In this document: positions 3,845 through 30,240 of the stretch, piece by piece | How positions within the stretch are numbered: the stretch's first letter is position 1 | How the letters are laid out: each line of letters starts with the position of its first letter | Assembly: GCA_003225055.1 (NCBI GenBank) | Contig: QIAU01000191.1 | Span: forward strand, 1-57,303 | Direction: 5' to 3' | DNA: 57,303 nucleotides | From: Acidobacteriota bacterium | GTDB lineage: Bacteria; Acidobacteriota; Terriglobia; Terriglobales; Acidobacteriaceae | Notes under the pieces: generated by a model | What the model was told of the DNA's origin: nothing | What the model saw: the letters and a program-made list of their open reading frames with translations, nothing else | The model's database searches: none | Made by a program: the position numbers and the translations under genes

Positions 3845-4108
3845 CCGTGCAAACGGTGCGCGCTGCCGGCCGACGACCTGCTTGACGTACGTGCTGAGGG
3901 ACTCGACGTCGGGAACATATTGGTCTCGAACAGCACGGGCGATAGCCTTCACGACGAGCGCTACCCACGGGTGCCCGAGCACAGCTTCAACCCTCGACAC
4001 GATCCAGTGCTTTCGGCTCAAATGAACGGTTTTGTTTATCCCGACCCGACACACAGATATTACGGCCCACGGCTGGTTGCCGCGGTCATCGCGGACACTC
4101 CCTTCAGC
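3845..4108 (+). pseudogene. Chimeric gene scar: CehA-like then GHL10-like fragment
   Basis: Directly after the dioxygenase stop the same frame stays open for about 88 codons without any start signal. The first half (ADDLLDVRAEGLDVGNILV) resembles the region of CehA/McbA proteins following the metal-binding His motif. The second half (QMNGFVYPDPTHRYYGP) closely matches HMDGYVYPDPTYKQYGE in the GHL10-type enzyme encoded at 7660-9552. It therefore looks like a junction of two truncated genes. The GHL10-like match is clear by eye; the CehA-like match is weaker. The fragment overlaps the 3' end of the convergent GH38 gene. Confidence 0.5.
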
Positions 4109-7100
4109 CGCATAGTCAAGATCTGAAAAGGTCCGATGTTTGCCTGCACACGATGGGCCGAAACGTCTAAAGGCTGTTGGTTTTCCTCCACGGCATTCGA
4201 GACCCATGCAGACTCAAGATTGAGAAGCGGCGTATCGATCGTTACTTTGTTCGACTTTCCGTCAGTTTCGAGTAGTCGCAATATTGTTCCATTACCGTCC
4301 TCAGCAGGTTTCCATGTGACAACATCGACGTCGGGCTGGTCTACGGAAAGGAAGCTACCCTCTGCTGCACTGAGCGGCCGCGGGATGTCGATCACCTTAT
4401 CTATGGTCGTGATCTTGTTCGCTTCCAAAGGCGTCATTGATTCCGAACCAAAGCGAGCAAGTGCTGCCCTGTTCATTGGTCGGCCACTACTCAGCACGTA
4501 GCGGAATACGAACTCTCCCCCCTGGGCGCCGACATAGTTCGTGGGCCAATAATTATTGAGGGCGTAAGAAAAAACGGTTCCGTGACGCTTTCCAAATTCC
4601 CGTGGCCAAAGCCCGCGGACGATGTCCCCGAAGGTGACCAAGGGTGCATCGGCCGGAACCAGCGTAGCGGAAATGTCCGCTTGCTCGACAGACACCCAAT
4701 GCTGAACTGAAAACCATTCCTTTCCTGCCCCAGGCATCTGGTCTTTTGTCGGATCAACAAATCCATTTTGGATTGCGTAGCTGAAATTCGGGTGAGCCAT
4801 GGCGAAGGGGAAGGCGAAATAGACAGCCTCCTTGGCGTAAATCTTGTCTTTGTTCACGCGATTAATGAACTCGATCTTCTTCTGTGAATCAAACAGAATA
4901 ATCTCGGTTTGGATTTGAGGGGTATTGACGTCCGAACTCTCCAGCCGGGCGACAGTTCCGAACGGGGTTCGAGTTACCGACCGCAGCCGCCCGCCGCGGG
5001 CGCGATGGACCTCGAGGATGGGAGGCGACGTGTCGATTCGGGAATCGACGAGACTATTAGGACGCAAATCACCGCCGGTGACGTAGAGGTATTGGTCAAA
5101 GCGATATGGGCTGGTTACGTCCACCAGCTCCTGGTTCAAGTCCTTGTCGAAAATACTTTGCACGGCGCCGCTCTCAGGATCCAAAGAGACGCGATAGAAG
5201 TCGCTCTCGATCGTCGTTCGGAAGTCAGTCGGCGGATTTTGGGCATCCGGGCTGGCGGGTCTACTAGCATAACACTTGTACCCCATGGGCGGGATATCCG
5301 GGGCCAGAAAACGAACGCGTCGGAATGACTGACCGCTATAAAGAACCTCAAACCGAACGGCATTGTTTTTTGACAAATCCCAAAGCTCCTTGCCTTTATC
5401 AAGGTCGACTTCCACCAATCCGCTGCGAGCCCAATTGAGCGGATTGAAGATCACGAGTGTTCCCTCCTCGGTTGGAATGTAATTCTCGATTGCGGCGACG
5501 GCCCGAAGCAGCAAATGTTCGAGCAGGTGCTTTGCCCCGATTGCAAAACTCTCCTTGATCTCCTGCTGCCGACTGTGCTGCTCGGTATCGGGAGATGTCG
5601 CCAGACCTTGGATTCCATAAGTATGTTCTTCGTAGAGGATGGCGTCCCGCCAGAGTTCACGAAATGACTCGGATTCCGACTTAAGAAGCGGATTAAGGAG
5701 CGAGCTGATTGTCGCAAGCTTTTCAGCCGACAGCGCACGCTCTTCGTTCGATCGGTTCATAGCGGTAAAAAATGCGTCGGAGGCCACTCCGTCCTCCCAA
5801 TACGGCCCACCGTCTGCTCGCACAACCGGTATGGAACTACCTGCCTCGGCGAAGATCTTTTCCATCGCTTCCTGAACGCCGGAAAATTCTATCCGAGGGT
5901 AGGCAAACTCCTTATTCCACTCGTCCGCCACAGAGATTTGTTGAGGGAAAAACCCGACATTGTCTCCCTGCGTGCCATACAAGATCACTGAACTCGGCTT
6001 ATAAGTCTGTGCCGGGTAGTTTTGCAGGAAGAGAGGAAGAGAGTCTCGGCCCGTTTGCACCTGTGGAGGCAGACCAAAAATCTCCTCTAGCTGCGAATAA
6101 ATGCGCGAGTACCACGTTAAAACCCGATTTCCATCTGGCCCTTCCCACCAGAAAGGAGATTTCTCGTGCAAGCGCCCGAAGTAGAGAATCGGGCCGCGAT
6201 AGCCGTCGCTGCCGGCAATGAAGTATTTCAGGCCCGCAGCAGCGAGAATCGAAGCATAGGACCACGAGTATGACGGCACATCAGTGATGGCGGCATAATT
6301 GAAGTTCCCACCATATTTGCTAGAGAAACGGTGGCTGGGATAAAGAGAACGAATCAGAGTTTCAAGAGAGGCGGACCCCGTCAGAAGGTTGGCGTACTGA
6401 GCCGGTAACTGGATTTTCTTTTCCTTTACGAGCTGCAAGAACCTTTTCTTATCTTCTTCGCTGCGACTTCGCCAGAACTGCTCGACGACCCAGAAACCGT
6501 CAGGCTCAAAACGGAAATCGGGTCGGGCGTGGATCGCTTCAATTACATCGTCAAGCATTCGGGCGTGAATTTCCGCAACCTTTGCTTGGTAGTCCGTATA
6601 ACCAATGTCGAGATGCGAGGAGGGCACGATGTACACTCTCCACTTTTTAGCTGGAACAACAGGTTCAGTCTGAAAATGGCGTAGGTGCGTTTTGTCGCAC
6701 AGAACCAGTTCGCCTGGTAGCTGAGAACTAAATTCTGGCACCTCCACGGTCAGCAAGTACTCTCCGAAGTCGCGGCCGGGTTGCAGTTTCTGAGAGTACC
6801 GGTGGTTCCCCAGAACCAATGTGACATCACGACACTTTGAAACTTCTCCCAGACGCAGGAACACGTCCACCAGTTCCACAAGCTCATTGCCCTCACGCCG
6901 GTAAAAGATCGTGGGCACGACGTCAACGTGACCTTCGTTGGAAGAATAGGTGCCAGTAGGGGCGTAGTCCATTTCCAGGGCGTCATAATCGAGCCGACTC
7001 TCTCCGTATCGATAAGATCGATACGTCGGGCTACGCGTCTCCGGCACTCGAGAAGCCTCGTCGAGTGCTGTCAGCACAAGCCTGTTCACGCCTCGTTTGA

Positions 7101-7608
7101 GAAAATTTGTGGGGATCTGGAATCGGATCGTGGATTCTGCTGAGGTAGGCATGGCGCCAGCATCCATTGCACCCGAGGCATAGGTTAATTTGGGGTGTTG
7201 GTAGAACCAGCCCCGGTGACCATTGACTTCGACTTCGAGCCACGGCACGCGCAGAGTCCTGACCAATAGCCCTATCCTCATCGAATAGAGCCCCGTGGGG
7301 ACTTCGGATAAATCAAACTGAATAGTTAAAGGATGTGGCCTAGCCCCCCAATTCGCATCATGGGACGCAGGCTGAAAAGCGGTCCAGTCTTTCGCGGAAT
7401 CGCTCTTGCCAACTACATACACTAGGTCCATTAGAGCGTTTTTGAAGTCGATATTTCCATGGAATTCGGTCGAGGAATCGTTGAACGTTCCGATCTGCCA
7501 CAGAGTGCTTGAGGCCGCCTCTGTTACCTGAGGAAAAGACAGGCTTGTCAATGTCATTACCAGCACAAGCAAGCGAATGCTTTCTGATCGACTGCACATG
7601 AGTGTCAC
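4060..7608 (-). CDS. GH38 alpha-mannosidase-like enzyme with N-terminal PL4-like domain
   Basis: This is a 1182-residue exported protein. The signal peptide is residues 1 to about 31 (LLVLVMTLTSLSFPQVTEA). Residues of about 33-220 begin LWQIGTFNDSSTEF, the hallmark of the beta-sandwich domain found at the C-terminus of PL4 rhamnogalacturonan lyases, here placed at the N-terminus. A GH38 catalytic core follows: the metal-binding HLD motif (H332-x-D334 in SSHLDIGYTD), WVVEQFWR, and ITDVPSYSW at about 440, where the nucleophile Asp is expected. Long beta domains typical of GH38 make up the C-terminal half. A retaining alpha-mannosidase activity on plant or microbial glycans is likely, but this subfamily is divergent. 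The last dozen residues (after FQILTMRLKG) probably read into the neighbouring gene scar because the native stop was lost. M4 is an alternative start. Confidence 0.85.
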   Translation of the reverse strand: MTLMCSRSESIRLLVLVMTLTSLSFPQVTEAASSTLWQIGTFNDSSTEFHGNIDFKNALMDLVYVVGKSDSAKDWTAFQPASHDANWGARPHPLTIQFDLSEVPTGLYSMRIGLLVRTLRVPWLEVEVNGHRGWFYQHPKLTYASGAMDAGAMPTSAESTIRFQIPTNFLKRGVNRLVLTALDEASRVPETRSPTYRSYRYGESRLDYDALEMDYAPTGTYSSNEGHVDVVPTIFYRREGNELVELVDVFLRLGEVSKCRDVTLVLGNHRYSQKLQPGRDFGEYLLTVEVPEFSSQLPGELVLCDKTHLRHFQTEPVVPAKKWRVYIVPSSHLDIGYTDYQAKVAEIHARMLDDVIEAIHARPDFRFEPDGFWVVEQFWRSRSEEDKKRFLQLVKEKKIQLPAQYANLLTGSASLETLIRSLYPSHRFSSKYGGNFNYAAITDVPSYSWSYASILAAAGLKYFIAGSDGYRGPILYFGRLHEKSPFWWEGPDGNRVLTWYSRIYSQLEEIFGLPPQVQTGRDSLPLFLQNYPAQTYKPSSVILYGTQGDNVGFFPQQISVADEWNKEFAYPRIEFSGVQEAMEKIFAEAGSSIPVVRADGGPYWEDGVASDAFFTAMNRSNEERALSAEKLATISSLLNPLLKSESESFRELWRDAILYEEHTYGIQGLATSPDTEQHSRQQEIKESFAIGAKHLLEHLLLRAVAAIENYIPTEEGTLVIFNPLNWARSGLVEVDLDKGKELWDLSKNNAVRFEVLYSGQSFRRVRFLAPDIPPMGYKCYASRPASPDAQNPPTDFRTTIESDFYRVSLDPESGAVQSIFDKDLNQELVDVTSPYRFDQYLYVTGGDLRPNSLVDSRIDTSPPILEVHRARGGRLRSVTRTPFGTVARLESSDVNTPQIQTEIILFDSQKKIEFINRVNKDKIYAKEAVYFAFPFAMAHPNFSYAIQNGFVDPTKDQMPGAGKEWFSVQHWVSVEQADISATLVPADAPLVTFGDIVRGLWPREFGKRHGTVFSYALNNYWPTNYVGAQGGEFVFRYVLSSGRPMNRAALARFGSESMTPLEANKITTIDKVIDIPRPLSAAEGSFLSVDQPDVDVVTWKPAEDGNGTILRLLETDGKSNKVTIDTPLLNLESAWVSNAVEENQQPLDVSAHRVQANIGPFQILTMRLKGVSAMTAATSRGP

Positions 7609-7659
7609 AAATTATCGGGACAGTTGTTTCCTGTCGTACTTCGCGATGCGAACCAGAAT

Positions 7660-9552
7660 CTAGCCGCCCCCGATTGGAGGAAAGCGCCCGTCCATGACGA
7701 GGTTTCCCAAACGGTGAAATCGTATCTGAACGACGGGCTTCGGCGCGCCGGATTCTTTCGCGTCGCGTAATCGCAATTCATCTACGTGACCCAAGCGTGA
7801 GACCACTGTCCCCTGCGCCACCTTTTCGCCTCCGGCATCAAAAAACACGACCCCATGCACCCCTTTCTCGTACCAAGAGAGTGCTTGGCTGATGGTGTTA
7901 TCGTAGGCGGGCGGGGAGAACACGGTGTATGACGGAAAGAAAGGGATGCCTTTCGGCCGGCAAACGTCAAGGAAGAAGTCTATGTCGACGCCTGCCTTTT
8001 TGCTGCCGATACCCCATTGATCCAAAAAAATCTCATCGATTAGCCCCTCAGTAACCCACCGTCGCACATCAAGTCCATAGAGCAAGTTGTTGTACTCGTT
8101 GCCGAAGACCATGACGCTTAGCTCTAGGTGTTTGCCGTCAACGCGGCGATTTTGTTCCTCGTCAAGCATTGCACGAGCCTCGCGAATAAATGTTGTCACG
8201 ACCTCCACCCAGGCTTGCTTGATGCGCGGGTCCGATTCCTCGTCCAATTTCCGAGGATCTTCGCCATAACGTTTCTCAAAAATCTCTAGGAACGACGGTT
8301 CGTACAAAACGACGGGGACACCGCGGCAGAAGACCAAGTGAGCGCCGTCGGCACCGAAACCCACTGCCTCGCGCAATACATCGACGAGATGCCTCCGCAC
8401 CTTGGGCACCGCCCAACTCATGCGTGCCACCGGAGTGCCGTCCCGATCCACGCACCGCCACTCGGGATGAGCTTGATAGAAAGGCGAGTCGAAGAATCTC
8501 TGGAGAGGTTCGTAGTAAGTCCAAAGGGCCGGGCGGATGCCAACGTGAACCTTCATACCCAAGGCGTGCGCGCCCTCAATGAGCACTTTGGTGGGATTGA
8601 TCCCCTTCTTAGCTAGCTCCCGCACTGCCTCGCCATATTGTTTGTATGTCGGATCTGGATAAACGTATCCATCCATGTGATCCGAAAGCATGTGGCCGTA
8701 TTGCGACGGGTAGTTGAGCCCATCCGCGCCACCTACGTGCAAGAGCAGGGTACCGAAATCGGTGTGACGGAATACCTCGACTTCTCGCAGAAGGTCCTCA
8801 ACCGTGGTCGGACGATGATTGATTAGGTAGCCTACTCCGTCGTTTGTGGTCGCCAGCCTGCGAGTCGTTCGTTGATCGCGGTCAGCCAGGAAGCCAGAGA
8901 TTTCCTCGTTGCTCAGAGGGATAAGTTTGACATTGACCAGTCCCGCAGAGAAAGCCGCACCCGCGGACTGCTGCTTGATGTACAAGGTGGTGTCGTTCAA
9001 TTCGGCAACCTTGAAAAAAACCTCAGTGAAGCTGCCGTAGGGCGCATACTCCTCGCTCGTGCGGGGCTGGGCAGAAACGTCCCCGTCCAACTTCAACCAT
9101 AACGTCGACGGTCCTAAGACGGTCGCATAGATGCCGACGAAGATCGCGTGCCAGCCCTTAACGCGTAACGGCAATCGGATCTCCGGCGCGCGCTGCTCCA
9201 ACGCAGCCCAGAGCAGTTTTCCCAGAGTTCCACCGGCGAGCTCGTAGGGAACGACCTGCCAGTACCCGGTTTTCGCCTGAGGCGAGAGCGCCGACACCGG
9301 ATGACACACGCTCATGTCGATGAGCAGGGTGGCCTTCGAAGCGTTCGCCCATCTCCCGGCGACGACATCGGCCCACGGCGGGAGTGCACCTGGCTGCGTT
9401 TCGCGATTTGCCTCGTATACCGCTCGTGAGTCCTCGGAAGTGGAGACGAAAGGACCTGCCTCGGCGTCGGTACCGAGCGAGGGCATGGAGGACCCGATCA
9501 TTGTGAATCCAACCAGGCGTTCGAACTCCCGCCGCGTCAATTTATCGATCAT
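7660..9552 (-). CDS. GHL10-type glycoside hydrolase-like protein, Tat-type leader
   Basis: The chosen start (complement of 9550-9552) gives MIDKLTRREFERLVGFTMIG, a Tat-like leader with RR followed by a hydrophobic stretch. A start 12 codons upstream is possible. About 230 residues of beta-sandwich-like sequence precede a TIM-barrel region of the family-10-like glycosyl hydrolase type (GHL10/DUF187 relatives). Visible barrel features are HMDGYVYPDPTYKQYGE, GMKVHVGIRPALW, HPEWRCVDRDG, GADGAHLVFCRG and LIDEIFLDQWG. Catalytic residues of this group are not well defined and I do not assign them. The protein is probably periplasmic or cell-surface and acts on an oligosaccharide. It sits 51 bases upstream of the GH38 gene on the same strand, so the two are likely cotranscribed. 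Confidence 0.72.
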   Translation of the reverse strand: MIDKLTRREFERLVGFTMIGSSMPSLGTDAEAGPFVSTSEDSRAVYEANRETQPGALPPWADVVAGRWANASKATLLIDMSVCHPVSALSPQAKTGYWQVVPYELAGGTLGKLLWAALEQRAPEIRLPLRVKGWHAIFVGIYATVLGPSTLWLKLDGDVSAQPRTSEEYAPYGSFTEVFFKVAELNDTTLYIKQQSAGAAFSAGLVNVKLIPLSNEEISGFLADRDQRTTRRLATTNDGVGYLINHRPTTVEDLLREVEVFRHTDFGTLLLHVGGADGLNYPSQYGHMLSDHMDGYVYPDPTYKQYGEAVRELAKKGINPTKVLIEGAHALGMKVHVGIRPALWTYYEPLQRFFDSPFYQAHPEWRCVDRDGTPVARMSWAVPKVRRHLVDVLREAVGFGADGAHLVFCRGVPVVLYEPSFLEIFEKRYGEDPRKLDEESDPRIKQAWVEVVTTFIREARAMLDEEQNRRVDGKHLELSVMVFGNEYNNLLYGLDVRRWVTEGLIDEIFLDQWGIGSKKAGVDIDFFLDVCRPKGIPFFPSYTVFSPPAYDNTISQALSWYEKGVHGVVFFDAGGEKVAQGTVVSRLGHVDELRLRDAKESGAPKPVVQIRFHRLGNLVMDGRFPPIGGG

Positions 9553-9838
9553 CTTTTCTGAACTCCAAATCTCGTGGTGAGAATGCAATTTAACCTTTTC
9601 TTCTCGTTCCGACCCTCAAAATTACTCGACATCACACTGAAGGCCGTGGATGACCGGCCCCAAATTGCGAAAAGCGCCCCTTGCATGCTTTATTTCTGAG
9701 GATTTGAACAGCGATCGGTAGTCCATTGACGCCGTTTTCTGAGCGGGCGCCGCCAGTGCGGCAATCGGGGGCTCCACGGCCCCTTCCAATCGAACTTCGC
9801 GACAAACTCGTTTTCGGATCGGAGAACTGCCAGCTCCG

Positions 9839-10420
9839 CTAGAAGAAGAGCTTCAGCGCGAACTGGACATCGCGGGCGTTTCCCACGCGCTTGATGCTCG
9901 GATCATAGGTGTAGAAAAAAGTTCCAGAAGGTCCTATGAACGAGGGGTGATTGACCGCATTGAAGAGCTCCGAGCGAAACTGCAGTCTTGTGCTTTCGTG
10001 GATCGGGAAGAACTTTTCGATGCCAATATCCCAATTGTTTGTGCCTGGACCACGGATAATATTAGCGCCGGCATTGCCTGCTCTCTGGACTTGGCTTTGC
10101 ACCCCTGTGACTGGGTTAGTAATTGTTATAAAGGGAGCCGGAAGGAAGCACTTGGAGTCGTACCACACCGCAACCGTGCGCCTGGAACTCGGCAGGTTCC
10201 CGTCGCAGATGCGGTCGGGAACTCCGCCAGTTGCGTCGCGGACAGAGAACGGGAATCCGCTTTGGAAAGTCACGATGGTGTTAGCCTGCCATCCACCCAG
10301 GATGCCATTCAGATAACGATTCCAGTTATCGCCGAAACGCCTACCCCGGCCGAGCGGAAGCTGCCAGCCTCCGCTAAAGCTGAATCGGTGACGCACATCA
10401 AAATCGGCAGTGGATCGCAC
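9839..10420 (-). pseudogene. TonB-dependent receptor, C-terminal barrel fragment
   Basis: This frame encodes the last 190 residues of an Oar-like outer-membrane receptor. It begins STADFDVRHRFSFSGGWQLP, the conserved 'DfDvRHRf' strand, continues with GWQANTIVTFQSGFPFSV and FNAVNHPSF, and ends in aromatic ...QFALKLFF, the expected C-terminal outer-membrane beta signal. It overlaps the upstream receptor frame by about 110 bases. The junction near 10405-10425 is a single-base-type frameshift, because the upstream frame loses receptor similarity exactly where this one gains it. Unless corrected by a sequencing error elsewhere, the receptor would not be assembled. Confidence 0.75.
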
Positions 10421-13053
10421 CTATGGAACGCCAGAACGACGTAAGAGCTGATAGTAGAAGTGAGCTGCTCGTTGTTCTCGTCATTGGAGGAGTCCGCGAT
10501 GGCGTGGCTCCAAGTATAAGAACCGAGGAAGAACGCCCCGTTCGACATGTCCTTGCGCAGCGTTGCTTGCAGGCTGTCATAGAAGGAACTGAATCCCTCC
10601 TCATGCATCGCTTGGTATCCCCAGCCGTTTATTCTCGCCTGCAAAGATTTCACCATGTCTTGTGAGTAGGTTGATGTCGCAATCTCGCCGCTCAGGTTTA
10701 CTCCATGCGATCCCACGAAGCCCAGTTCGGCGACGGTGCGGTGACCTAAATCCCTTCCAAAACTCAAATTGTAATTTTCAACGTAGCTCAAGGGGAAATT
10801 CGGAGATATGAAGGTGAAGTAACCGGGATTTTGGCCGAAAATAGTATTCAGGCCGGGTACATGTTGATCCACGGTGTACACACCAGTCGCGACTTGGGGA
10901 GTCCCTGCTGGTGCCTTAGTATAAATGTACCCGGTGTAAGTCTGGAAAGGATACGCATATGATCCGAGTGTGGTGAGGTCTGCGGGCTGGCTGATAAAGA
11001 AGAGTCCATAGCCTCCACGGATCACGGTCCTTTCATCGTTGAACAGTCTGAAGGCAAAGCCGATGCGCGGAGCGAAATTTCTCAACGATGGATCGTACGG
11101 ACGGTTGGGTCCGTTGGTCTCGTAAGGATACTGCAACCCGGCCAGCAGATCTGCCGGAGCTCCTTTCGCATAACGAGGGGTAAACGTTTTGTAATCGATC
11201 GTCATGTAGTTTCCATTCTGCATGGCGAACGGTGCGTCGTAATCCCATCGCAAGCCCAGGTTAAGGGTCAGACGTGGCCGCACCTTCCAATTATCTTGCA
11301 CGTACGCAGATAGAGTATTCCGAGCGAGAGGCATGTCGATGCCTCGGCCCAAGCCGGCTGTCACCCAGTCGGGGACACCGGCTAGCAGGTCCCCCCATGG
11401 AGTTCCTGTGTATCCGTAATACGTCTGATACTTCGCATATTGGGAGGCCCCGTCCAAGAACCCGAAGGCGTAAGAAGCAGTCCCAGCGCCATTGATCCAG
11501 CCGAAGAATTGATGCCTGAAATCGCCGCCGAACGTCAGGGTGTGGCGACCCTTCGACCATGTGAGGTTGTTGCTAAAAATCATGGTCTTATCGTCATGCG
11601 TGTATATCGAAGCGCCGCCCATGTAGTAGCCCTCTTTGCCATAGATATCAATACCAGGAGCGCCGGCTGCATTCTGGAGGTCCGTGCTGACTCCCCAAAG
11701 AGCCGCATAGTTCTTATCGGCGATGGCGGGCAGACTTCCGGCCCAGTAACGTGAATACGTGAAGTGCAGATCATTGACCAAAGTGGGCTTGAAAGTATGG
11801 GTATACGTGGCGGTCCAATCCTGGTTATGGTTCTGACTTACAGTATCGCTATATTTGTCATAAGAAGCGCTGCCGTCGTCGTAGTAATCGTATTCGTAGG
11901 TGGCGGAAACCTGATTACTCTCATTAAAGTTATGATCAAACCGTCCCAGATACTTTTTTTGGGCGAACGTACCGCCGCGGAATAGGTGCAGGTTTGCAAG
12001 CGGGTTGGCCGGATCGTTAAAATTCGGCTCCGGCATGAGGGTCATCAGGAATTTTCCGACTGGATTAATTAAACTTGCTGGCAAAACATTACCGGGAATG
12101 GGGTCTAGGGTGAACGGGTTTCTCAATACCACTGGCTGGCCATCGTACTGATTAATGCTCTGTGAGAAATCCCCAACCCGCTCTAAAGCAGTGGGCGCTT
12201 GGCTTACAATCAATGAGCCAGGTTTCTTTTCGTTAAACCGTTCGAAAGCGAAAAAGAAGAAACTCTTGTTCTTCTTGATCGGCCCTCCAATCGTGCCCCC
12301 ATACTGGTTAAACAGATAGCCTGGCTCCTTTGACCTGGGATCGGTAAAGAAGTAGGGAAGCGCGTCCAATGCTTTGTTGCGGTGATACTCATAAAGATCG
12401 CCGTGGAAGTTGTTGGTGCCTGATTTCGTAACAGCGCTGATGATAGCGCCGCCAGAACGTCCGTACTGGGCAGAATACATGCTCGTTTCTACCCTAAATT
12501 CTTTGATGGAATCCAGAATAGGGGAAGATTTGAGCGAGCTGTCCCACGGATCAGTGCTCTCCGCGCCGTCGACGAAGTAGTTGTTATAGGAAGCGCGGGC
12601 TCCGTTAAAGGCGATCGTATATCCCCGGCTCACGATGGCGCCCCGCTTCGGGTTGCCGGAACTGGCGCCCGGCGCCAACGCTGCCAATGCGATAAACTCC
12701 CGCCCGTTCAACGGAAGGTTATCAATCGCTTGGTTTGGGATTACGTTCCCTAGGGCCGCAGTCTCAGTGTTCAGTTCGCCTCCTGGGGCGGTTACTGTGA
12801 CCGTCTCCTGTGTGCTTCCGACTACCATCTTCAGGTCCGCTCGTAGGAGTTGGCCGACCGTAAGGGTAAGACCGGTGAGGGCAGTGTCTGCAAACCCCTG
12901 CATTTTGGCTCGAACTTCGTATGGACCGGGCTGCAAAAAGTCCAAGCGGTAGGAACCTTCGTGGTTCGTCACGGTGTTCCGCGTAACGCGGGTATCGAGA
13001 TTAGTCGCTGCAATACGGACTCCGGCGATAACCCTCATTGGTTGTTTGCGCAA
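10309..13053 (-). pseudogene. TonB-dependent receptor (Oar-like), main body, frameshifted at both ends
   Basis: This is the body of an acidobacterial Oar-like TonB-dependent receptor. It contains most of a CarboxypepD_reg domain (NHEGSYRLDFLQPGPYEVRA), a plug domain (VPNQAIDNLPLNGREF-like region and VTKSGTNNFHGDLYEYHRN), then a long beta-barrel with aromatic strands. It would import or bind glycan oligomers at the outer membrane. The frame here starts at a TTG in mid-domain; the real signal peptide lies in another frame further upstream. The tail after STISSY is out of frame and the barrel continues in the next fragment (9839-10420). With two disruptions, the gene is probably inactive. Confidence 0.82.
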
Positions 13054-13503: not shown

Positions 13504-13656
13504 CTAACTGCTGAGAATTGAGGGCGCGCTGGGCTGCCTACTCCGCGAGGTGGCGCCATCCCCCGAAATCCTGTCGCATTTGGATGCGGCCCGTCCTTGG
13601 ACAGCTCGGTATGCAGCATGCCGTATTGTCCCGCCATGTGACTGGAATAAGCATCG
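13504..13656 (-). pseudogene. SGNH-hydrolase C-terminal remnant downstream of sialidase-like gene
   Basis: Just beyond the stop of the sialidase-like gene, the minus strand encodes SSHMAGQYGMLHTELSKDG then PHPNATGFRGM. This matches FSHMAEPDGMLRAELSDDG then LHPNAAGFRVM from the SGNH domain fused to the sialidase-like enzyme at 26870-29326. A frameshift then occurs, and the last residues (AAQRALNS) match QRALNSRP at the end of that paralog. Only the final block with the catalytic DxxH region survives, with the Leu before His changed to Pro. It is a dead remnant, implying that this sialidase-like gene once carried, or was followed by, an SGNH domain. Confidence 0.65.
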
Positions 13657-15477: not shown

Positions 15478-16006
15478 TTTTGAAGGCCTCCAATTCTCAT
15501 GTAACTCTGGGGCTAAGAAAATTCATCTTTCTCCTCTGGCTCTGTTCCGTCGTTCGGCATGATGTTTGTCTGTTGCATTAGCCAAGCGGCGGAGAAGACG
15601 GGTAGGGTAGGCGCGCTTGTTGATTCCGTCTTCACTGACGTCTCGCCAAGTTGGCGAACGTGACCGCCCTGTAGCGTGTCAGACGCTCTCCGGCGTACAG
15701 GCGAGAGCGCCCTCCGGGATAAGGGGTTGAACGGCGCACAATGACAGGCGAACGGATTTTGCCTTTGATTTCGGCAGAATAATCCAGGCCCGTGCGGAAA
15801 GACTGTCGCGTACGCGTCGACGACTGTCGACAGAACACTGATTGGGCTCACCTCTGGAAGGTCCCTTCCCGCAGTGACAATAATAGCATATGTTTTCGGG
15901 GAAAAGTCTTGAAAAAAAGTCCTTGACGAACGCACCTCAATTGAAGTAAAGAAGCAGACCGCCGACAGTCGACCGGCCTGCGTGGTGTCAATCTCGGAGG
16001 GCCGTC
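15478..16006. promoter_or_regulatory. Divergent intergenic region with promoter and GTCGAC palindromes
   Basis: This 529-base stretch separates the minus-strand sialidase-like gene from the plus-strand receptor stub. No credible gene is visible. On the plus strand TTGACG (15923-15928) and TAAAGA (15947-15952), spaced 18 bases, form a likely promoter for the stub and perhaps the genes after it. GTCGAC-centred palindromes occur at 15815-15822 (CGTCGACG), 15824-15833 (CTGTCGACAG) and 15962-15976 (CCGACAGTCGACCGG). The last lies just downstream of the -10 box, as in the paralogous promoter at 13161. Confidence 0.5.
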
Positions 16007-21388: not shown

Positions 21389-21392
21389 GGAC

Positions 21393-23620: not shown

Positions 23621-24982
23621 ATGGTTGCGCTGCTCAGTCTCAGACGACTCTTGACCTACATCCTTATTGGGATTGTCCTTGGTACAGCGGTGACAAGTTG
23701 CCCATTGCAGGCTCAGCAGAAACTCAACTTCGAACATTTGAGGCAGCAGAAATTCCGAATAATGCCCGTGAGCTACGGTGATTGGGTCGAAAACGGCGAC
23801 TTGTTCTCTTCAAAAGAAGCCATCGAGGCATCATTTAAGGCCATCCACGATTACGGGAGCACGCATATTTATTGGCGACTCTTGTGGGAAGGTCACCCCA
23901 TCGACAAAATGTTGTTCTACGGGAACAATCTTCAGGAGAGGAATTTTCGACTCAAGCAACCCTTCGAAGGAACTCCGTATGCCTGGAATCCCCATGAAAT
24001 TCGTTATCCGCTGGAAGTGGCGCACAAGCTGGGAATGAAGTTCTATGTGTGGGTATCCATCTACAACGAAGGCGCGCCCCCTGCAGTCGCCGGCGAGTAC
24101 TGGTACCAATCAGTGTTTGTCTACGAACATCCCGAGTTTCAGTTGGTGGACCGTACAGGCAAGCGATATTACTACGGGGTATTGGAGTGGGCCTACCCAC
24201 AGGCGCGTAAATATTGGGTGGATGAGATACAGGAGATCCTCGACAAGTATGATGTCGATGGAGTCTATTTAGACGCCCGTCCAGAGGCGATTTGTCCAGA
24301 GACAGCCGACGAGTTCGGCTTTAACGATCCTGTAGTGAAGGAATATGAGCGGCGCTACGGTGTCAATATTCTTCGAGAGGATTTCGACTTAGAAAAGTGG
24401 CGCGCCTTGCGTGGCGAATACTTCACGCTCTTGGTCAAGGAGATAAGTGACCGCATTCACGCTAAAGGCAAGCTTTTCTCGCTTGGTATCTCCCGCGGTG
24501 ATTATATCGGATACCCCGTAGGGAACATGAAACTGGAGTGGCGCAAATGGATTGAAGAAAAGGTGATCGACTATCTTCACCTGGACGAGTATGGTCACTG
24601 CTCAACCTCGAGTCTCAGTGCCGGCCTAAATCCCTCTGCCGTCCAGCCCTACGGCTTTGTTACTGATTATCCGACGGAACGAGGGTTGAAGCCGCTCGAT
24701 GTTGCCGTGCGGGAAGACTATGGGCCCCTTTGTCATAAGCACGGTGTAAAGCTTTACTTCCGCTGCTATCCGTACCAGCCACGCCCTATAGAAAACGAAT
24801 GCTGTGAGAGTAGAGCGACAATGAACCCTAAGCCAGTTCCGCCTGGCTGGTGTCAGCACCTGCTGGAGATGCCTGAGATCGATGGGGTTGATGAGGTCGC
24901 GCCGTTTTTCCTAAGCAAAATGTTTCCTCAATGGGCAGTGCCGCGCCGCGAGCAGCGCAGAACATATCCTCTTTTTAAATGA
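23621..24982 (+). CDS. GHL10-type glycoside hydrolase-like protein
   Basis: This is a 453-residue exported protein. A hydrophobic leader (LLTYILIGIVLGTAVTSC) ends in a possible lipobox-like Cys (AVTSC). The barrel motifs parallel the upstream gene: STHIYWRLLWEG, GMKFYVWVSIYNEG, HPEFQLVDRTGKRYYYG, YDVDGVYLDARPEA, YERRYGVNI, RALRGEYFTLLV and VIDYLHLDEYGH. These are typical of GHL10-like enzymes. A strong GAGGAGA precedes the start. No HEAT extension is present, so it is the simpler counterpart of the fusion protein. It is probably in the same transcription unit. Confidence 0.72.
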   Translation: MVALLSLRRLLTYILIGIVLGTAVTSCPLQAQQKLNFEHLRQQKFRIMPVSYGDWVENGDLFSSKEAIEASFKAIHDYGSTHIYWRLLWEGHPIDKMLFYGNNLQERNFRLKQPFEGTPYAWNPHEIRYPLEVAHKLGMKFYVWVSIYNEGAPPAVAGEYWYQSVFVYEHPEFQLVDRTGKRYYYGVLEWAYPQARKYWVDEIQEILDKYDVDGVYLDARPEAICPETADEFGFNDPVVKEYERRYGVNILREDFDLEKWRALRGEYFTLLVKEISDRIHAKGKLFSLGISRGDYIGYPVGNMKLEWRKWIEEKVIDYLHLDEYGHCSTSSLSAGLNPSAVQPYGFVTDYPTERGLKPLDVAVREDYGPLCHKHGVKLYFRCYPYQPRPIENECCESRATMNPKPVPPGWCQHLLEMPEIDGVDEVAPFFLSKMFPQWAVPRREQRRTYPLFK

Positions 24983-25014: not shown

Positions 25015-26763
25015 ATGAACTGTGATCATAGTCCGGGAATTTCCTTCCATACTAGCCGGCGAAGCTTTCTGAGGCAGGTGAGCATCGCGGCCGCTATGAC
25101 GCAATTCGCGGCGCCCGGGCTCACGTTCCCGAGCGCGCAATCCGCTCGAGCCGGATCCCCACCCGATTTATTGCCGATTCCCGATTACATGACGTACGCG
25201 ACTTCGCCGGATGGCAAGATTATCGCGATCCTGAGCGAAGTACGCAATGGCAATGTGCTGGCTCGCTACAGCTCGGATGATGGCTCAAATTGGGGTGAAC
25301 CAACCCCATTGTTCCCGTTGGATATTTCTCGCGGGGGATGGTCATTGCAGAACTGCTTCACGGATCGCGATGGCGAATTGCAGATCCTCGGCACTCTCGA
25401 TAATACGCCGCAGCATCCGCAGTCCATCTATGAGACCCGCTACGACATCTGGCATTTCCGCTCTCGTGATGCGCAGCGCTCGTGGAACGCACCCGTTTTG
25501 GTATGGAAGGGATATGCGGGCTCGCTGCTCTCGTTCCTTCAATTGCGCGACGGGCGTGTCGTAGTGCCGTTCTGCTATCTCACTCCCCGAACCTGGGCAA
25601 AGCGCGGCGAAGGTTTCGACCAATTTACGTACATGGGGCGTTTCAGCTCCTCTGCCGCGTACTCCGACGATAACGGCCAAACTTGGCACATCTCTTCCAA
25701 TGAACTGAAAGAGCCCACGCCGGAGATCGGCGACGATGGCGGCATCGAACCGATTGTTCTTGAGCTGAAGACGGGTCGCCTGTGGATGCTGATCCGAACG
25801 CAGAACGGCCGTTTTTTCGAATCGTTTTCGCAGGATCGAGGGGCAACCTGGACACATCCGCTTCCGACCGGCATCAGTTCCTCGGATTCTCCCTGCTCCC
25901 TCACTCGCCTACACGACGGACGCGTGGTGATGTTATGGAACAACACACTTCGTTATCCTTACGCAAACGGCGGTCGTGCCATACTGCATGGGGCGATTTC
26001 AGAAGACGGTGGAAAGACGTGGCGAGGATACCGCGAGGTCGCTGCCAATCCGTACGCGATTGAGCCGCCGCCGCCGAATGGCGATCATGGTGTTACCTAT
26101 ACCGTCCCCGCGCTCACCGCCAGCGGAAAGCTCATTACTTCGCTCAGCACGGGTCACGGTAATGACACGTTACTCCTGCGAGTGGATCCTGAGTGGCTAT
26201 ACGAAACCAAACGAGAAGATGACTTTTCACGTGCATTGAACGGCTGGACCTCTATCGGAACGCGGGGCGTTGCGCTAGAGGCGCATCCTGACAACCCAAA
26301 CCGGCGAGTCCTTGCGCTACGGAAGCCTGACCCGGAATGGCCCGCTGGCGCAGTTTGGAATTTCCCTGCCGGTAAGCATGGCCAGCTCAGCATGCGTCTG
26401 CGGTTAGCGCGGGATTTCGCTGGTGCTTTGGTCGGAATCACCGACCACTTCTCTGTTCCATTTGACGAGCAGGACCGTTTCTGCAACATCTTCAATCTAG
26501 ACATTGGCCCTGGAGGAGCATTGGCCGAAGGCGGCAAGATCACGCCCGGACAATGGGGAGAACTGGCGTTCAAGTGGGACTGCGAGTCGCAGAGGCAGTG
26601 CAGCGTGACCGTGAACGGCCGGCCAGTTGCCAGGCTCTACATGAAACGAGAAACACCCGGTCCCTCCTACTTACGCCTCCGCTCCACCGCTCTTGGACAG
26701 GACAGCGGCGGGCTGCGAGTTGAATCGGTCGTAGCTGACGTCAGCGCCAGTTGGACCACATAG
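25015..26763 (+). CDS. Sialidase-like BNR-repeat enzyme with Tat signal (paralog)
   Basis: This is a 582-residue protein with a twin-arginine leader (TSRRSFLRQVSIAAAMTQFA). Asp-box motifs are YSSDDGSNWGEP, YSDDNGQTWHIS, FSQDRGATWTHP and ISEDGGKTWRGY. Conserved motifs GIEPIVLELKTGRLWMLIRT and SSDSPCSLTRLHDGRVVMLWNN match the products at 13672 and 26870. The C-terminal beta-sandwich runs from EWLYETKREDDFSRALNGW to the end. There is no SGNH extension and none is visible downstream. Exo-sialidase-like activity on an unknown sugar acid or related residue is inferred from the fold. It is 32 bases after the GHL10-type gene with GGAGA upstream of the ATG. Confidence 0.8.
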   Translation: MNCDHSPGISFHTSRRSFLRQVSIAAAMTQFAAPGLTFPSAQSARAGSPPDLLPIPDYMTYATSPDGKIIAILSEVRNGNVLARYSSDDGSNWGEPTPLFPLDISRGGWSLQNCFTDRDGELQILGTLDNTPQHPQSIYETRYDIWHFRSRDAQRSWNAPVLVWKGYAGSLLSFLQLRDGRVVVPFCYLTPRTWAKRGEGFDQFTYMGRFSSSAAYSDDNGQTWHISSNELKEPTPEIGDDGGIEPIVLELKTGRLWMLIRTQNGRFFESFSQDRGATWTHPLPTGISSSDSPCSLTRLHDGRVVMLWNNTLRYPYANGGRAILHGAISEDGGKTWRGYREVAANPYAIEPPPPNGDHGVTYTVPALTASGKLITSLSTGHGNDTLLLRVDPEWLYETKREDDFSRALNGWTSIGTRGVALEAHPDNPNRRVLALRKPDPEWPAGAVWNFPAGKHGQLSMRLRLARDFAGALVGITDHFSVPFDEQDRFCNIFNLDIGPGGALAEGGKITPGQWGELAFKWDCESQRQCSVTVNGRPVARLYMKRETPGPSYLRLRSTALGQDSGGLRVESVVADVSASWTT

Positions 26764-26869: not shown

Positions 26870-29326
26870 ATGACTACTTTCACCATTGGCTACGTTTTGC
26901 TTGTCGTATCGGTTAGCTCTTTCGCATATGCAAGCCCATCATCCGGGACGCAGACCGCAACCTCGCCTGGAGTTGCATCAGCGAATCGCCAAGCGCCTTC
27001 ACCGCTTGTTGTCGCCAGCACTGATGAACTTTACAAACCTGCCCTGCTAAAAGACGGCAGGCTAATCGCAGTGGCACTTCCCATGATTAAAGGAGTACAG
27101 CAGGCGGTCGCGATGTATTCATCCGACAATGGCCGGACGTGGGGAGAATCCATGACGCTGTTCAGCCTGCCGCGCGATGAAGGCACATTCGGATATTTCA
27201 ATTTCCTAATCGACCACGCAGGCGAAATGCATTTTTTCTTCTTGCTTGATCCGTCTACGGGGACAAGGTGGCACCAAACCCATCATCAGATGCTCGCCAA
27301 AGAAGCGGAACTCGATATCTGGCACCTGAAATCGAATGCTGGTGCTACGGCCTGGCAGGCTCCTAAACGCATATGGCAGGGCCGGGCCGGGGATATCCTG
27401 TCGGTCATCCAACTACGTAGCGGACGTATTCTTCTCCCGATCTGTTACCGCACCGATCGCAGTTGGGGAAACCGGGGCAGCGGTTTCGATGCGTACACGT
27501 ATCATGGACAATTTGACAGCTCTGCACTCTATTCCGATGACGATGGGAATAGCTGGCATCAGTCGCCGAGCATCTTGCGAACACCCACGCCCGACATCAC
27601 TACGATTGAAGGGGCGATCGAGCCGGTTGTACTTGAGTTGAAGGATGGGCGCGTATGGATGCTCATCCGAACACAGATGGGCCGCTTCTACGAGTCTTAT
27701 TCAAAAGATAATGGCGACACGTTTTCGGCGCCCCGTCCAACATCTCTGCTCGCTTCTGATTCCCCGGCCGGACTCGTCCGCCTCTCAGATGGACGTATCG
27801 TGATGATCTTGAACCGTAGCTTGCGATTCCCGTACGCGTACGGCGGACGCCACGTACTCCACGCCGCGATTTCTGACGATGATGGGAGAACATGGCGCGG
27901 TTACCGCGAGATTCTCCGCGACCCTCTGCGTCAAGATCCTCCTCCGCCGGGAGATGATTTTGGTCCCGCCTATCCCTATCCCACAATCACCAGGGACGAT
28001 AAGATCTTGTTTGCGCTCGCATGCGCAACGGGAACGCGAAATGCAGAACCGAGTGCCCGGCCTGGCTTCGTGTCAAGACAAAAGCGGGACCTCACGTTGC
28101 TGGATCCCGAATGGCTCTACGAAACGTCGCAACACACTGATTTTTCTGACGGCCTGGACGACTGGTCATCCTTCGGCGTGAAGGGCGTGCAGTTGGAGTC
28201 CGACCCGGCGCGCTTCGGTGCTCAGGTGCTCAGCATCCGCAAAACGGACCCTGATTGGCCAGCCGGCGCAGTCTGGAATTTTCCCATCGGCGCCCGCGGT
28301 CATGTGCACCTAAAGCTGATGCTAAAACCAGGTTTTGGCGGTGCACTCATCGCTCTAACAGACCATTATTCAGTCCCCTATGACGACGTGGATAGCTTTT
28401 ATAACATCTACAACTTCGCGATCGGCCCAAATGGCACTCTGACGGATGGTGCAAGACTGGAACCGAATCGCTGGCACGATCTGGATCTGGATTGGGATAC
28501 TGCTGCGTGCCAGGGACGTGTCGTCGTCGATGGACGCCACCTCGAGGTCTTATCAAGGCGACATGAAAGCGAAGGGATTTCTTATCTGCGTATGCGATCC
28601 ACCGCGCCCGACACCGATCTCGCCGGGTTTCTTGTGAAATCGATTGATGCGACGATCAATTCCACCAAACTATTCTCGCAAAGCGTGCCGAGTGCGGGTG
28701 TCCCACATCCCAACTCTCTTCACGAAGCGCAGGCTTGGATCGACCATTTGTGGTACTTGCAACATGACTGGCCACAACTGGAGCGCTACCGCCAAGCGAA
28801 TCTTGAGATGGGTCCGCCGAATCCCGGTGAGAACCGCGTCGTCTTCTTAGGTGACTCGATCACTGAACACTGGGACCTCGAGCGCTGGTTTCCAGGCAAG
28901 GGATATCTGAACCTTGCGCCGAGGGTCGCGGTGATCCTCGCCGGGACAAATGACATCGCCGGGAACACAGGACCGACGACGCTCGAAGCCATCGAACAGA
29001 ACTTCGCAGCGATGGCAGACCTGGCAGCAAGGAACGGCATCATCGCTGTTTTCAGCTCCGTGTTGCCGATCCACGATCGCGGTCCCGAGAGGAGTTCGCT
29101 TCGGCGTTCACCGGGAAAAATAAACGCACTAAATCTGTGGCTTCAGCAATACTGTGCCGGTCACAACCTTGTATACCTCGATTATTTCAGTCACATGGCG
29201 GAACCAGATGGCATGCTGCGGGCTGAACTCTCCGATGATGGACTGCACCCGAATGCGGCCGGATTTCGAGTGATGGTGCCACTTGCAGAGCAGGCGATTC
29301 AGCGTGCCCTCAATTCTCGGCCTTAG
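26870..29326 (+). CDS. Sialidase-like enzyme fused to an SGNH domain lacking block II
   Basis: This is an 818-residue exported fusion. The signal peptide is at residues 1-21. Residues of about 35-600 are a BNR sialidase-like module (YSSDNGRTWGES, YSDDDGNSWHQS, YSKDNGDTFSAP, AISDDDGRTWRGY) plus the beta-sandwich. Residues of about 620-818 form an SGNH hydrolase domain with block I (VVFLGDSITEHWDLERWF, catalytic Ser), block III (VILAGTNDIAGN, catalytic Asn) and block V (DDGLHPNAAGF, catalytic Asp/His). Between PGKGYLN and LAPRVAV about 22 residues are missing, in frame, compared with the adjacent pseudogene. This removes block II with the oxyanion-hole Gly, so the esterase part is probably impaired. 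Confidence 0.82.
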   Translation: MTTFTIGYVLLVVSVSSFAYASPSSGTQTATSPGVASANRQAPSPLVVASTDELYKPALLKDGRLIAVALPMIKGVQQAVAMYSSDNGRTWGESMTLFSLPRDEGTFGYFNFLIDHAGEMHFFFLLDPSTGTRWHQTHHQMLAKEAELDIWHLKSNAGATAWQAPKRIWQGRAGDILSVIQLRSGRILLPICYRTDRSWGNRGSGFDAYTYHGQFDSSALYSDDDGNSWHQSPSILRTPTPDITTIEGAIEPVVLELKDGRVWMLIRTQMGRFYESYSKDNGDTFSAPRPTSLLASDSPAGLVRLSDGRIVMILNRSLRFPYAYGGRHVLHAAISDDDGRTWRGYREILRDPLRQDPPPPGDDFGPAYPYPTITRDDKILFALACATGTRNAEPSARPGFVSRQKRDLTLLDPEWLYETSQHTDFSDGLDDWSSFGVKGVQLESDPARFGAQVLSIRKTDPDWPAGAVWNFPIGARGHVHLKLMLKPGFGGALIALTDHYSVPYDDVDSFYNIYNFAIGPNGTLTDGARLEPNRWHDLDLDWDTAACQGRVVVDGRHLEVLSRRHESEGISYLRMRSTAPDTDLAGFLVKSIDATINSTKLFSQSVPSAGVPHPNSLHEAQAWIDHLWYLQHDWPQLERYRQANLEMGPPNPGENRVVFLGDSITEHWDLERWFPGKGYLNLAPRVAVILAGTNDIAGNTGPTTLEAIEQNFAAMADLAARNGIIAVFSSVLPIHDRGPERSSLRRSPGKINALNLWLQQYCAGHNLVYLDYFSHMAEPDGMLRAELSDDGLHPNAAGFRVMVPLAEQAIQRALNSRP

Positions 29327-29464
29327 AGGAGTCGCAGGTGCCTTGCATGATCGTGGTTCTGGAGCAAGATTTTTCGAATACCTGCTAGGTTAATCTGCGC
29401 GAATCGTGGACTGCGCTTTACTGTGCAATGTCACAATACCGTGAATATCAAGGTGGAAACAATT

Positions 29465-30240
29465 ATGCGACATTGGCAACAAGTCATCTGCATCTCGGCG
29501 GCTTTGTTACTGCAGTCATCGATGGCCGCGAGTGCTCAAGGCAGCTCGCCGAGCAATGTCGTACGGGCATGTCAGCCGGCACATCGCGTACAGGAATGCT
29601 CAGAACCTGACGAACTCGGCTCCCGCTTAAAGCGCGACGAACAGATCCTAAGAGACTGGCCCGCGCTCGCTCGCTACCGCGAAGACAACGCCCGATTAGA
29701 CGACAACACGGCCAGTTCTTTTTTGGGAAGCCGTACATTAACCGGGGCATAAGCGGACAGATCACCGGACAGATGCTGATCCGTTTTCGCCCGGATGTCA
29801 TTTGGTTGCGGCCGAAGGTGGTTGTGATTCTTGCTGGTACCAATGACATCTGGGACAACAATACTCCAGCTGCGTTGCTGCCGATAGAGGATAACTTGAT
29901 GTCGATGACAGAACTTGCCAAGGCAAACGGAATCGGTGTTGTACTCGCGTCTGTCCTCCCCGTCTGTGATGCCTTCGACCCACAAACGCCCCATCGCTCC
30001 CCGCAACGGATCATTGACCTCAATGCCTGGATGAAAGCGTATGCTGCGACCAACGGATTGGTCTATGTCGACTACTACTCGGCCATGCTCGATGAGCATG
30101 GAATGCTCAAGCAGGCATTAACCTATGACTGCGTTCATCCCAATGATCGAGGTTATGCTGTAATGGAGCCTTTGGCCAACGCAGCTATTGAAACTGCGTT
30201 CCGCGATATCAGGGCGCGTAGCAGCCGGACTCGACCCTAG
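29465..30240 (+). pseudogene. SGNH hydrolase pseudogene lacking block I
   Basis: From ATG 29465 the frame encodes a signal peptide (QQVICISAALLLQSSMAASA) and the family's linker (RDWPALARYREDNARLDD). The segment that should hold GDSIT is then missing, and after a run of T the frame is wrong and stops at 29752. In the shifted frame block II follows (FGKPYINRGISGQ, then QMLIRFRPDVIW), then VILAGTNDIWDNNTP and DCVHPNDRGY to the stop at 30240. Blocks II, III and V are therefore intact while the catalytic Ser is gone. A shorter product could start at 29773. The pattern is complementary to the SGNH domain of the preceding gene. Confidence 0.75.

Follow-up and report, generated by a model that had tools for sequence, protein, structure and literature searches.

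A duplicated, partly eroded glycan-degradation locus in an Acidobacteriota genome, with Tyr-type relatives of GH181 sialidases and a possible link to sialic-acid-type utilisation

Gene content and organisation of the locus

The window analysed here is contig QIAU01000191.1 at its whole length of 57303 bases (C236 in this study), from the genome of an Acidobacteriota bacterium (G000; 7.4 Mb in 301 contigs), and the system in question is a glycan-degradation locus in its interval 4060-30240, which encodes three sialidase-like proteins. The interval was examined by listing of open reading frames (ORFs), Pfam and NCBIfam scans of the ORFs of at least 120 amino acids, self-BLAST and a PDB sequence search, and two of its proteins were modelled with AlphaFold2. 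The following features were found:

243-3037 (+), FG-GAP repeat protein(s), two overlapping ORFs, 243-2150 and 2141-3037 (Pfam FG-GAP)
4060-7608 (-), GH38 alpha-mannosidase-like protein (Pfam Glyco_hydro_38N, E 1.4e-21; GH38 match in the PDB, E 1.3e-4) with an N-terminal module like domain III of PL4 (Pfam, E 5.8e-17)
7660-9588 (-), GHL10-like protein a (Pfam GHL10, E 0.042, below cut-off; 28-29% identity to GHL10-like b and c)
9839-13053 (-), Oar-type TonB-dependent receptor, split into 10309-13053 and 9839-10420 (Pfam OMP_b-brl_4, profile positions 1-644 and 658-818)
13511-13649 (-), SGNH C-terminal remnant that follows sialidase-like 1 (sialidase-like 3 as tblastn query, E 1e-7; inverted repeats I1/I4; alignment)
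13672-15477 (-), sialidase-like 1, Tyr-type sister of GH181 (BNR_2, E 1.3e-27; alignment)
15556-15657 (+), possible remnant of a sialidase-like C-terminus (tblastn, E 0.004; inverted repeat I2, 80 nucleotides at 81%)
16117-16224 (+), second Oar-type receptor, reduced to a stub of its N-terminal carboxypeptidase-like region (tblastn, 64% over 36 amino acids, E 1e-9)
16251-17795 (+), propeller 1, probably five-bladed by paralogy to propeller 2 (31% identity)
17880-18782 (+), FGE/PvdO-like protein that lacks the cysteine pair found in formylglycine-generating enzyme (FGE) (Pfam FGE-sulfatase, E 1.9e-51)
18816-19565 (+), free SGNH esterase (Lipase_GDSL_2, E 5.4e-11)
19808-21388 (+), propeller 2, five-bladed type (AlphaFold2 model with a predicted local distance difference test score, pLDDT, of 77; PDB structure matches)
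21393-23570 (+), GHL10-like protein b fused to HEAT repeats (Pfam, E 1.2e-7, above cut-off)
23621-24982 (+), GHL10-like protein c (Pfam, E 7.4e-14, above cut-off; Cwp19, E 3.5e-7)
25015-26763 (+), sialidase-like 2, Tyr-type sister of GH181, with a Tat-like start (BNR_2; TIGR01409, E 0.04, below cut-off)
26870-29326 (+), sialidase-like 3 fused to an SGNH domain without block II (Pfam; alignment with an intact SGNH domain)
29654-30240 (+), damaged SGNH gene that is open over 29773-30240 (only positions 54-178 of the Pfam SGNH profile; 47% to the sialidase-like 3 tail)

The locus has eleven large uninterrupted ORFs, encoding the GH38 protein, the three GHL10-like proteins, the two propellers, the FGE-like protein, the free SGNH esterase and the three sialidase-like proteins, including the SGNH fusion. 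An earlier note on this DNA had listed much the same enzyme set, and that inventory was confirmed, with some corrections. Both parts of the GH38 protein with its PL4-like domain were found by Pfam, as were the separate SGNH esterase and the FGE-like protein; the three sialidase-like enzymes correspond to three BNR_2 proteins that are paralogues (44-49% identical by self-BLAST), and the receptor genes or stubs to the split Oar-type receptor and the 36-residue stub of a second one. The note had reported no sulfatase, SusD or regulator, and none was seen by Pfam among the interval ORFs scanned. Its claim of three GHL10-type enzymes, one with HEAT repeats, holds at the Pfam cut-off for proteins b and c, protein a being attached to them by sequence identity (the three are distant paralogues, 28-31% identical by self-BLAST). 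Its two five-bladed propellers are backed by a fold model for propeller 2 and by paralogy for propeller 1, with no Pfam family match for either.

The locus had also been described as duplicated, with receptor genes or stubs and an unfamiliar enzyme set, and this description is supported. When the window was compared with itself, inverted repeats I1-I4 were found to link the left and right halves of the locus, which fits a duplication with inversion, and these repeats together with the three full sialidase-like paralogues exceed chance. The GC content of the locus (54.6%, against 56.8% for the window, and 59.1% and 60.6% for contigs C39 and C242 of the same genome) is no more than suggestive of foreign DNA. 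The receptors and the nearest named loci point to a probable acidobacterial host.

Several genes of the locus are damaged. The signal-peptide-like start of the Oar-type receptor lies in another frame than the long ORF 10309-13053. In 26870-29326, a deletion of about 20 residues has removed block II from the SGNH part, in which blocks I, III and V with the Ser, Asn and Asp-His motifs are kept, and only the tail of another SGNH gene survives, at 29773-30240. All three SGNH copies linked to sialidase-like genes in the window (13511-13649, 26870-29326, 29654-30240) are therefore damaged, and O-deacylation here may rest on the free SGNH gene. Some of the single-base breaks could be assembly errors, since a receptor on C242 of the same genome is likewise split.

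The FG-GAP ORFs lie outside the interval 4060-30240 and possibly belong to the locus; FG-GAP proteins recur in sialidase-like loci L024, L025, L030, L042 and L051. The two ORFs overlap in different frames and are perhaps a single frameshifted gene.

Sialidase-like proteins

Among PDB sequences, sialidase-like 2 matched the structures of Amuc_1547 with E-values of 2.7e-30 to 3.8e-29, and other sialidases with 6.7e-6 at best. Amuc_1547 of Akkermansia muciniphila (PMC10067855, PMC12018670) is the founding GH181 enzyme. Residues 47-578 of the AlphaFold2 model of sialidase-like 2 (pLDDT 89.9) align to Amuc_1547 over 485 residues (Z 33.5, root-mean-square deviation 2.6, 27% identity), an alignment that takes in the six-bladed propeller and the C-terminal domain resembling a carbohydrate-binding module (CBM), which is described as unique to GH181 in PMC10067855; with GH33 enzymes about 300 residues align, with Z up to 30.6 among the matches listed.

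According to PMC10067855, with which PMC12018670 concurs on the residues, Gln350 preceded by His349 replaces the nucleophilic Tyr in GH181, alongside two Arg, Glu218, Asp345 and Gln367, and the reaction is inverting. These positions were inspected in an alignment of 82 sequences, made of the three window proteins and 79 ORFs (>240 bits, 450-900 amino acids) from 75 of 80 sialidase-like-centred loci, with one ORF counted twice (L028 and L044) and no row for L047, L052, L068, L078 and L079. The 80 loci were drawn from named genomes of many phyla, and many are truncated by contig ends; L027, L040 and L042 share one genome, and L102-L104 are near relatives. Residues E245, R261 and R321 (Glu218, Arg234 and Arg305 of Amuc_1547) are present in 82/82 sequences and D357 (Asp345) in 80/82. 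The nucleophile position (Tyr362) is occupied by Tyr in 75 sequences, by Glu in five (as Asn-Glu) and by Gln in two (as a His-Gln pair); sialidase-like 1-3 all keep the Glu, the two Arg and the Tyr. When a tree was made without these columns, each letter was confined to one side of one branch, with two changes, and the His-Gln and Asn-Glu forms sat on one side branch; this tree, from a quick search with a midpoint root where two long branches meet, shows clustering of the nucleophile letter and not the direction of change.

Given the Tyr at the nucleophile position and the shared Glu, Arg and Asp, sialidase-like 1-3 belong to a larger Tyr-type sister branch of GH181, outside GH181 in the strict sense. 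This branch is unassigned to a family and has members in Acidobacteriota, Planctomycetota, Verrucomicrobiota, Chloroflexota, Bacteroidota, Bacillota and further phyla; its active-site residues predict a retaining reaction, unlike that of the inverting GH181. At the Gln367 position, in a gap-rich region of the alignment, Gln is present in 70/82 sequences, including sialidase-like 1; ten of the 12 sequences without it fall in an 11-row group that includes sialidase-like 1-3 and has sialidase-like 1 as its eleventh member. No conserved column for a RIP-type Arg was seen at residues 46-74 of sialidase-like 2 in the 82-sequence alignment, the active sites not having been superposed.

Two further observations concern the nucleophile position. 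The Asn-Glu pair (L085, L087, L089, L093, L099) is a third form besides Tyr and His-Gln. PDB entry 9eob, listed as an engineered GH181 sialidase, has Ala-Tyr where 8axs has His-Gln, and resembles the natural Tyr-type state.

Gene neighbourhoods of the sialidase-like family

Seven sialidase-like copies are encoded in G000: the window and C39 have three each, and C242 has one. In an order sample of 150 genomes (including G000, G097, G006 and G138), in which the sialidase-like family and AstE were scored at E 1e-30, the former was detected in three genomes, G000, G097 and G006. A shared gene set adjoins the copies on C39 and C242 of G000, C7 and C42 of G097 and C1 of G006. It comprises an MBL-fold hydrolase, a PALP dehydratase, an M81/MlrC protein, an SDR, an AstE/AspA deacylase and two DHDPS-family aldolases, together with a NanM-like kelch protein, a GntR regulator (NCBIfam model PhnR first, NanR second), a class-III aminotransferase, an SGNH protein and Oar receptors. 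Only G000 and G097 also share an SSF symporter and a class-IV aminotransferase, the transporter there in G006 being of the MFS type. The only NCBIfam match of the AstE protein is the N-acetyl-2,4-diaminobutanoate deacetylase model, below cut-off, and its match on C39 is interrupted by a stop. The aldolase DHDPS2 is at most a candidate N-acetylneuraminate lyase: its best PDB match is labelled dihydrodipicolinate synthase/N-acetylneuraminate lyase, but the DapA model scores higher.

AstE was found in six of the 150 genomes, in four of them with >340 bits, and all three sialidase-like genomes are within those four (hypergeometric chance ~7e-6, or 4e-5 with all six, calculated by hand and ignoring shared ancestry). 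NanE exceeded its cut-off in 3/11 genomes having the sialidase-like family (G000, G006, G158), and 6/11 had a match at E 0.001; the NanE gene of G000 is on C187, apart from the sialidase-like genes on C236, C39 and C242. A YjhC-like role considered for a GFO/IDH/MocA protein on C242 was unsupported, its best model being inositol 2-dehydrogenase, below cut-off. A Rieske oxygenase resembling glycine-betaine monooxygenase (below cut-off) is encoded at L018:12830-14104, between sialidase-like genes on C39.

Beyond the order, PALP, AstE or M81 was detected at 100 bits or more in 10/80 sialidase-like-centred loci, vs 0/12 GHL10-centred and 0/4 propeller-centred control loci, which were unmatched to the former in taxon or length; at least two of seven catabolic families were present in 9/80. 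The AstE profile, run on 50 whole genomes with the sialidase-like family, gave a match at E 1e-10 in 33 and at least 200 bits in 20. Among the nine genomes named Acidobacteriota, AstE scored at least 297 bits in eight (one of which, L037, is itself a row of the profile, as is Parapedobacter L080) and was absent from one.

In Parapedobacter pyrenivorans (L080), the sialidase-like gene is surrounded by genes for SusC, SusD, GntR, two DHDPS, SGNH, AstE, SDR, PALP, M81 and kelch proteins. The operon beside the Tyr-type branch is observed in both Acidobacteriota and Bacteroidota. The best model for this SusD is NanU (E 3.6e-97, 327 bits, cut-off 425), that for the GntR is NanR (E 3e-23), and one DHDPS protein is best matched by N-acetylneuraminate lyase (E 4.6e-46), the other by DapA. 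In a reverse test within the Parapedobacter family, this AstE was found in 3/71 genomes, each with a BNR propeller gene in the cluster. Domains of SMP-30 lactonase and of aldo-keto reductase are encoded in the AstE loci L165 and L166. A Pfam match (Ribonuc_L-PSP) confirmed RidA in L166, and homologues at 65-69% lie in the same order of genes in L080 and L165. In L165 there is also a GH20 gene, as well as a fusion of an SGNH protein with the propeller family of the window.

Conservation and family placement of the window partners

As the earlier note had proposed, conserved synteny of the GHL10, propeller, sialidase-like and SGNH genes as a set was tested for; pairs of them were clustered, and the full set was not found. 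Conservation of the set was rejected on a phylum sample of 396 genomes, in which the sialidase-like family was present in seven genomes, GHL10c in nine and the propeller in 13, sialidase-like and GHL10c together in five (four of one genus) and sialidase-like and propeller in six. These searches scored three to four of up to 150 first-look candidates per genome, so that clustering in that one genus may be missed; 20 regions of the phylum genomes were inspected for clustering. GHL10c occurs in 1/150 genomes of the order sample, and propeller-family genes occur in 5/80 and GHL10bc in 1/80 of the sialidase-like loci. In genus g65, a propeller gene lies near GHL10bc in 5/8 loci (in none of four loci of another family), and both sialidase-like loci inspected have adjoining propellers, one of them (L153, on the same contig as L069) already counted through L069. 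Genome G403 has receptor, propeller, SSF, SDR, sialidase-like, PALP, M81 and aminotransferase genes within 40 kb, and in L025 of G006 a GHL10a homologue (32%) lies 4 kb from the receptor gene that precedes the sialidase-like gene. The window is thus a mosaic of recurring pairs, with no conserved block. In one genus of the phylum (G221, G245, G466, G487), first-look searches turned up 124-150 candidate propeller genes and 42-53 candidate sialidase-like genes.

The pairing of sialidase-like with SGNH modules, read in the earlier note as a sign of an O-acylated acidic or modified sugar, was borne out in part: it recurs in 15/80 sialidase-like loci and an acidic target is plausible from the Glu and two Arg kept in 82/82 sequences, set against the damage to the linked SGNH copies of the window.

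As to the remaining enzymes, Asp196 of Cwp19 is proposed as a likely catalytic-site residue in PMC5765458. Its equivalent is absent in 15/15 aligned GHL10-like sequences, with Ala in GHL10-like protein c. For the propellers, a weak NCBIfam GH130-type match was obtained (E 1e-4, 22 bits vs a cut-off of 450). The model of propeller 2 matched enzymes of the GH130/GH43 five-bladed type with Z 20-25, and among the matches listed were BT_0996 (Z 24.9), which has a role in rhamnogalacturonan-II breakdown, the GalNAc deacetylase 6n1b (Z 24.3) and GH130-type phosphorylases (Z ~24). True FGE has a copper-binding cysteine pair near its C-terminus. The FGE-like protein has Cys only at positions 59, 66, 139 and 293, with just Cys293 in the region of that pair, and FGE chemistry is unlikely for it; since the pair is missing, the protein gives no hint of hidden sulfatases, and its use as a sign of them was rejected.

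Interpretation and alternative explanations

From the families, folds, conserved active-site residues and gene neighbourhoods described above, the window is tentatively read as an accessory, partly eroded locus of the Oar-receptor type, which would supply a sialic-acid-type utilisation system whose catabolic branch is probably non-phosphorylative, a reading to which we give a probability of roughly 0.45. The substrate, stereochemistry, order of steps and enzyme activities that follow are what we infer, the pathway chemistry coming from the general roles of the families. Sialidase-like 1-3, predicted to be exported exo-hydrolases, would release, with retention, a terminal alpha-keto acidic sugar, be it sialic acid or some other nonulosonate, SGNH esterases would take off O-acyl groups, and the GHL10-like, GH38 and propeller enzymes would trim the remaining glycan chain. 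The products could be imported via Oar-type receptors and SSF symporters, and the freed sugar burnt by the operons on C39 and C242 of the same genome, beside the four further sialidase-like copies. There, a NanM-like mutarotase and then a DHDPS-family aldolase would convert the nonulosonate into pyruvate and N-acetylhexosamine, which the SDR would oxidise. The lactone may be opened by the MBL-fold protein in Acidobacteriota or by SMP-30 in Bacteroidota, a possible non-orthologous exchange; AstE-type deacetylation would come next, followed by elimination by the PALP dehydratase, with RidA in Bacteroidota, and cleavage of the keto-deoxy acid by the second DHDPS-family aldolase. The presence of lactonase-type and RidA genes strengthens the fit of this route.

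Several observations weigh against this reading. The window itself holds no catabolic genes, its receptor is broken and the locus may be inactive, and G000 itself encodes NanE. Sialidase-like 2 and 3 are among the 12 sequences without Gln at the Gln367 position and, apparently lacking this third carboxylate-binding residue, may act on a different sugar. PALP, AstE and M81 are missing at 100 bits from 70/80 loci, many of them ended by contig edges, and AstE is missing at E 1e-10 from 17 of the 50 genomes with the sialidase-like family. In Parapedobacter, the NanU, NanR and N-acetylneuraminate-lyase matches all fall below curated cut-offs, and in the reverse test the sialidase-like family was found in 1/71 genomes, the query genome, the other two having other BNR proteins. 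G138, the fourth high-AstE genome, carries the operon beside GH20 with no sialidase-like match at E 1e-30, and G554 also has GH20 by the operon, so that the pathway may serve N-acetylhexosamines in general. These GH20 neighbours weaken the pathway fit, as do the aminotransferases and the M81 protein, which the route does not need; a diamino nonulosonate (legionaminic or pseudaminic acid) would better employ the aminotransferases and a diaminobutanoate-type deacetylase.

Some of these points would also suit sialidase-like enzymes that cut another acidic or neutral sugar (Kdo, Dha, a plant or bacterial uronic acid) beside an operon that degrades an unrelated N-acetylated amino sugar or amino acid. 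We consider this somewhat unlikely: it would account for the apparent absence from sialidase-like 2 and 3 of a third carboxylate ligand, the lack of a detected RIP-type Arg column, the GH20 neighbours in G138 and G554, the sole, sub-threshold match of AstE to the diaminobutanoate deacetylase model and the position of BT_0996 as the closest fold to propeller 2 among the matches listed, but NanU-, NanR- and N-acetylneuraminate-lyase-like best matches share one Parapedobacter locus, NanM-like kelch proteins are found in the Acidobacteriota loci, and the GH181 site keeps its Glu, two Arg and Asp.

The damage to the locus can be explained in two other ways. It would be improbable, in our view, for the window to be an ordinary decayed polysaccharide-utilisation island, locally rearranged and duplicated, non-functional and with no special substrate. 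The split receptor, the receptor stub, the SGNH remnants, the in-frame loss of SGNH block II and the presence of GHL10c in a single genome of the order sample speak for such decay, against which stand the eleven large uninterrupted ORFs and the retention of Glu, two Arg and Tyr in all three sialidase-like proteins. Conversely, the breaks may be sequencing or binning errors in an intact locus, as would agree with the split receptor on C242, the stop within the AstE match on C39 and the frames of the FG-GAP ORFs; single-base errors are too small to account for the loss of block II, the 13511-13649 SGNH remnant or the receptor stub, and this explanation is judged unlikely, if less so than plain decay.

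Returning to sialic-acid-type utilisation, a bolder version, doubtful but worth stating, is that the Tyr-type branch around GH181 supplies the sialidases for a nonulosonate pathway of the non-phosphorylative kind, which would run through a lyase, a sugar dehydrogenase, a lactonase, an AstE-type deacetylase, a PALP dehydratase with RidA and a keto-deoxy-acid aldolase, and that the window is its decaying outpost. If true, this pathway could explain environmental sialidase genes in genomes without NanE. Across non-human environments, sialidase genes are given as about 21 times more prevalent than nanE, a marker of the canonical pathway, in PMC10570557. Among open-licence full texts, no oxidative sialic-acid route was recognised in the literature matches listed, which were mostly judged by title, and no literature was found for sialidase, TonB and Acidobacteria combined.

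Other features of the window

To the right of the locus, a small ORF at 31985-32374 (+) resembles a PIN-domain (VapC-type) toxin by eye, with no NCBIfam match at E 1e-5. Adjoining PDDEXK_1 and UvrD proteins at 33229-39983 (+) form an AddAB-like helicase-nuclease pair, and 43406-49085 (+) encodes three tandem MacB/FtsX permeases, an HlyD protein and an ABC ATPase, with DNA repeats 74-76% identical and 1152 bases apart in two of the permeases. Also outside the interval are a protein with a weak Asp-box match, below cut-off, at 40450-42000 (+) and a GH39 enzyme at 51683-53524 (+).

Comparison with known systems

The locus departs from a SusC/SusD polysaccharide utilisation locus in having an Oar-type receptor and no SusD among the scanned ORFs, both SusC and SusD being present in the Parapedobacter relative. 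Like the canonical nan system (NanA-NanE-NanK), sialidase-like genes of this family have a DHDPS-family aldolase, a NanM-like kelch protein, a NanR-like regulator and a transporter nearby; the difference lies in NanE, over cut-off in few of the family's genomes, and in an oxidative-looking gene set in its place. A sialidase-like branch that several lineages combine with an amino-sugar gene set of oxidative appearance, and whose genomes mostly lack NanE, would be a concrete and testable candidate for part of the nanE gap.

Among the partner enzymes, GHL10-like b and c pass the curated Pfam GHL10 (PF02638) score and protein c matches Cwp19, but the candidate catalytic Asp196 is missing from the window's group. 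Propeller 2 has its fold in common with five-bladed BT_0996, GH130, GH43 and 6n1b proteins, from which it differs by extra C-terminal strands and an identity of only 8-18% in the matches listed.

The sialidase-like proteins share the six-bladed propeller, the Tyr/Glu pair and the Asp boxes with GH33 sialidases, the two Arg being invariant in the window branch, and differ from them in the GH181-like CBM-like domain and in PDB sequence matches far weaker than those to GH181; a conserved RIP-type Arg was not seen in the alignment. With Amuc_1547 they share the six-bladed propeller, the CBM-like domain and the Glu218, Arg234, Arg305 and Asp345 positions; they differ in having Tyr instead of His349-Gln350 and, in sialidase-like 2 and 3, in the apparent absence of a Gln367 equivalent. 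The Tyr-type branch would thus be a natural counterpart to the inverting GH181, in which the retaining/inverting switch could be dissected, and three Tyr-type enzymes of the window now join it, together with two uncharted kinds of partner: propellers and GHL10-like proteins that lack the Asp.

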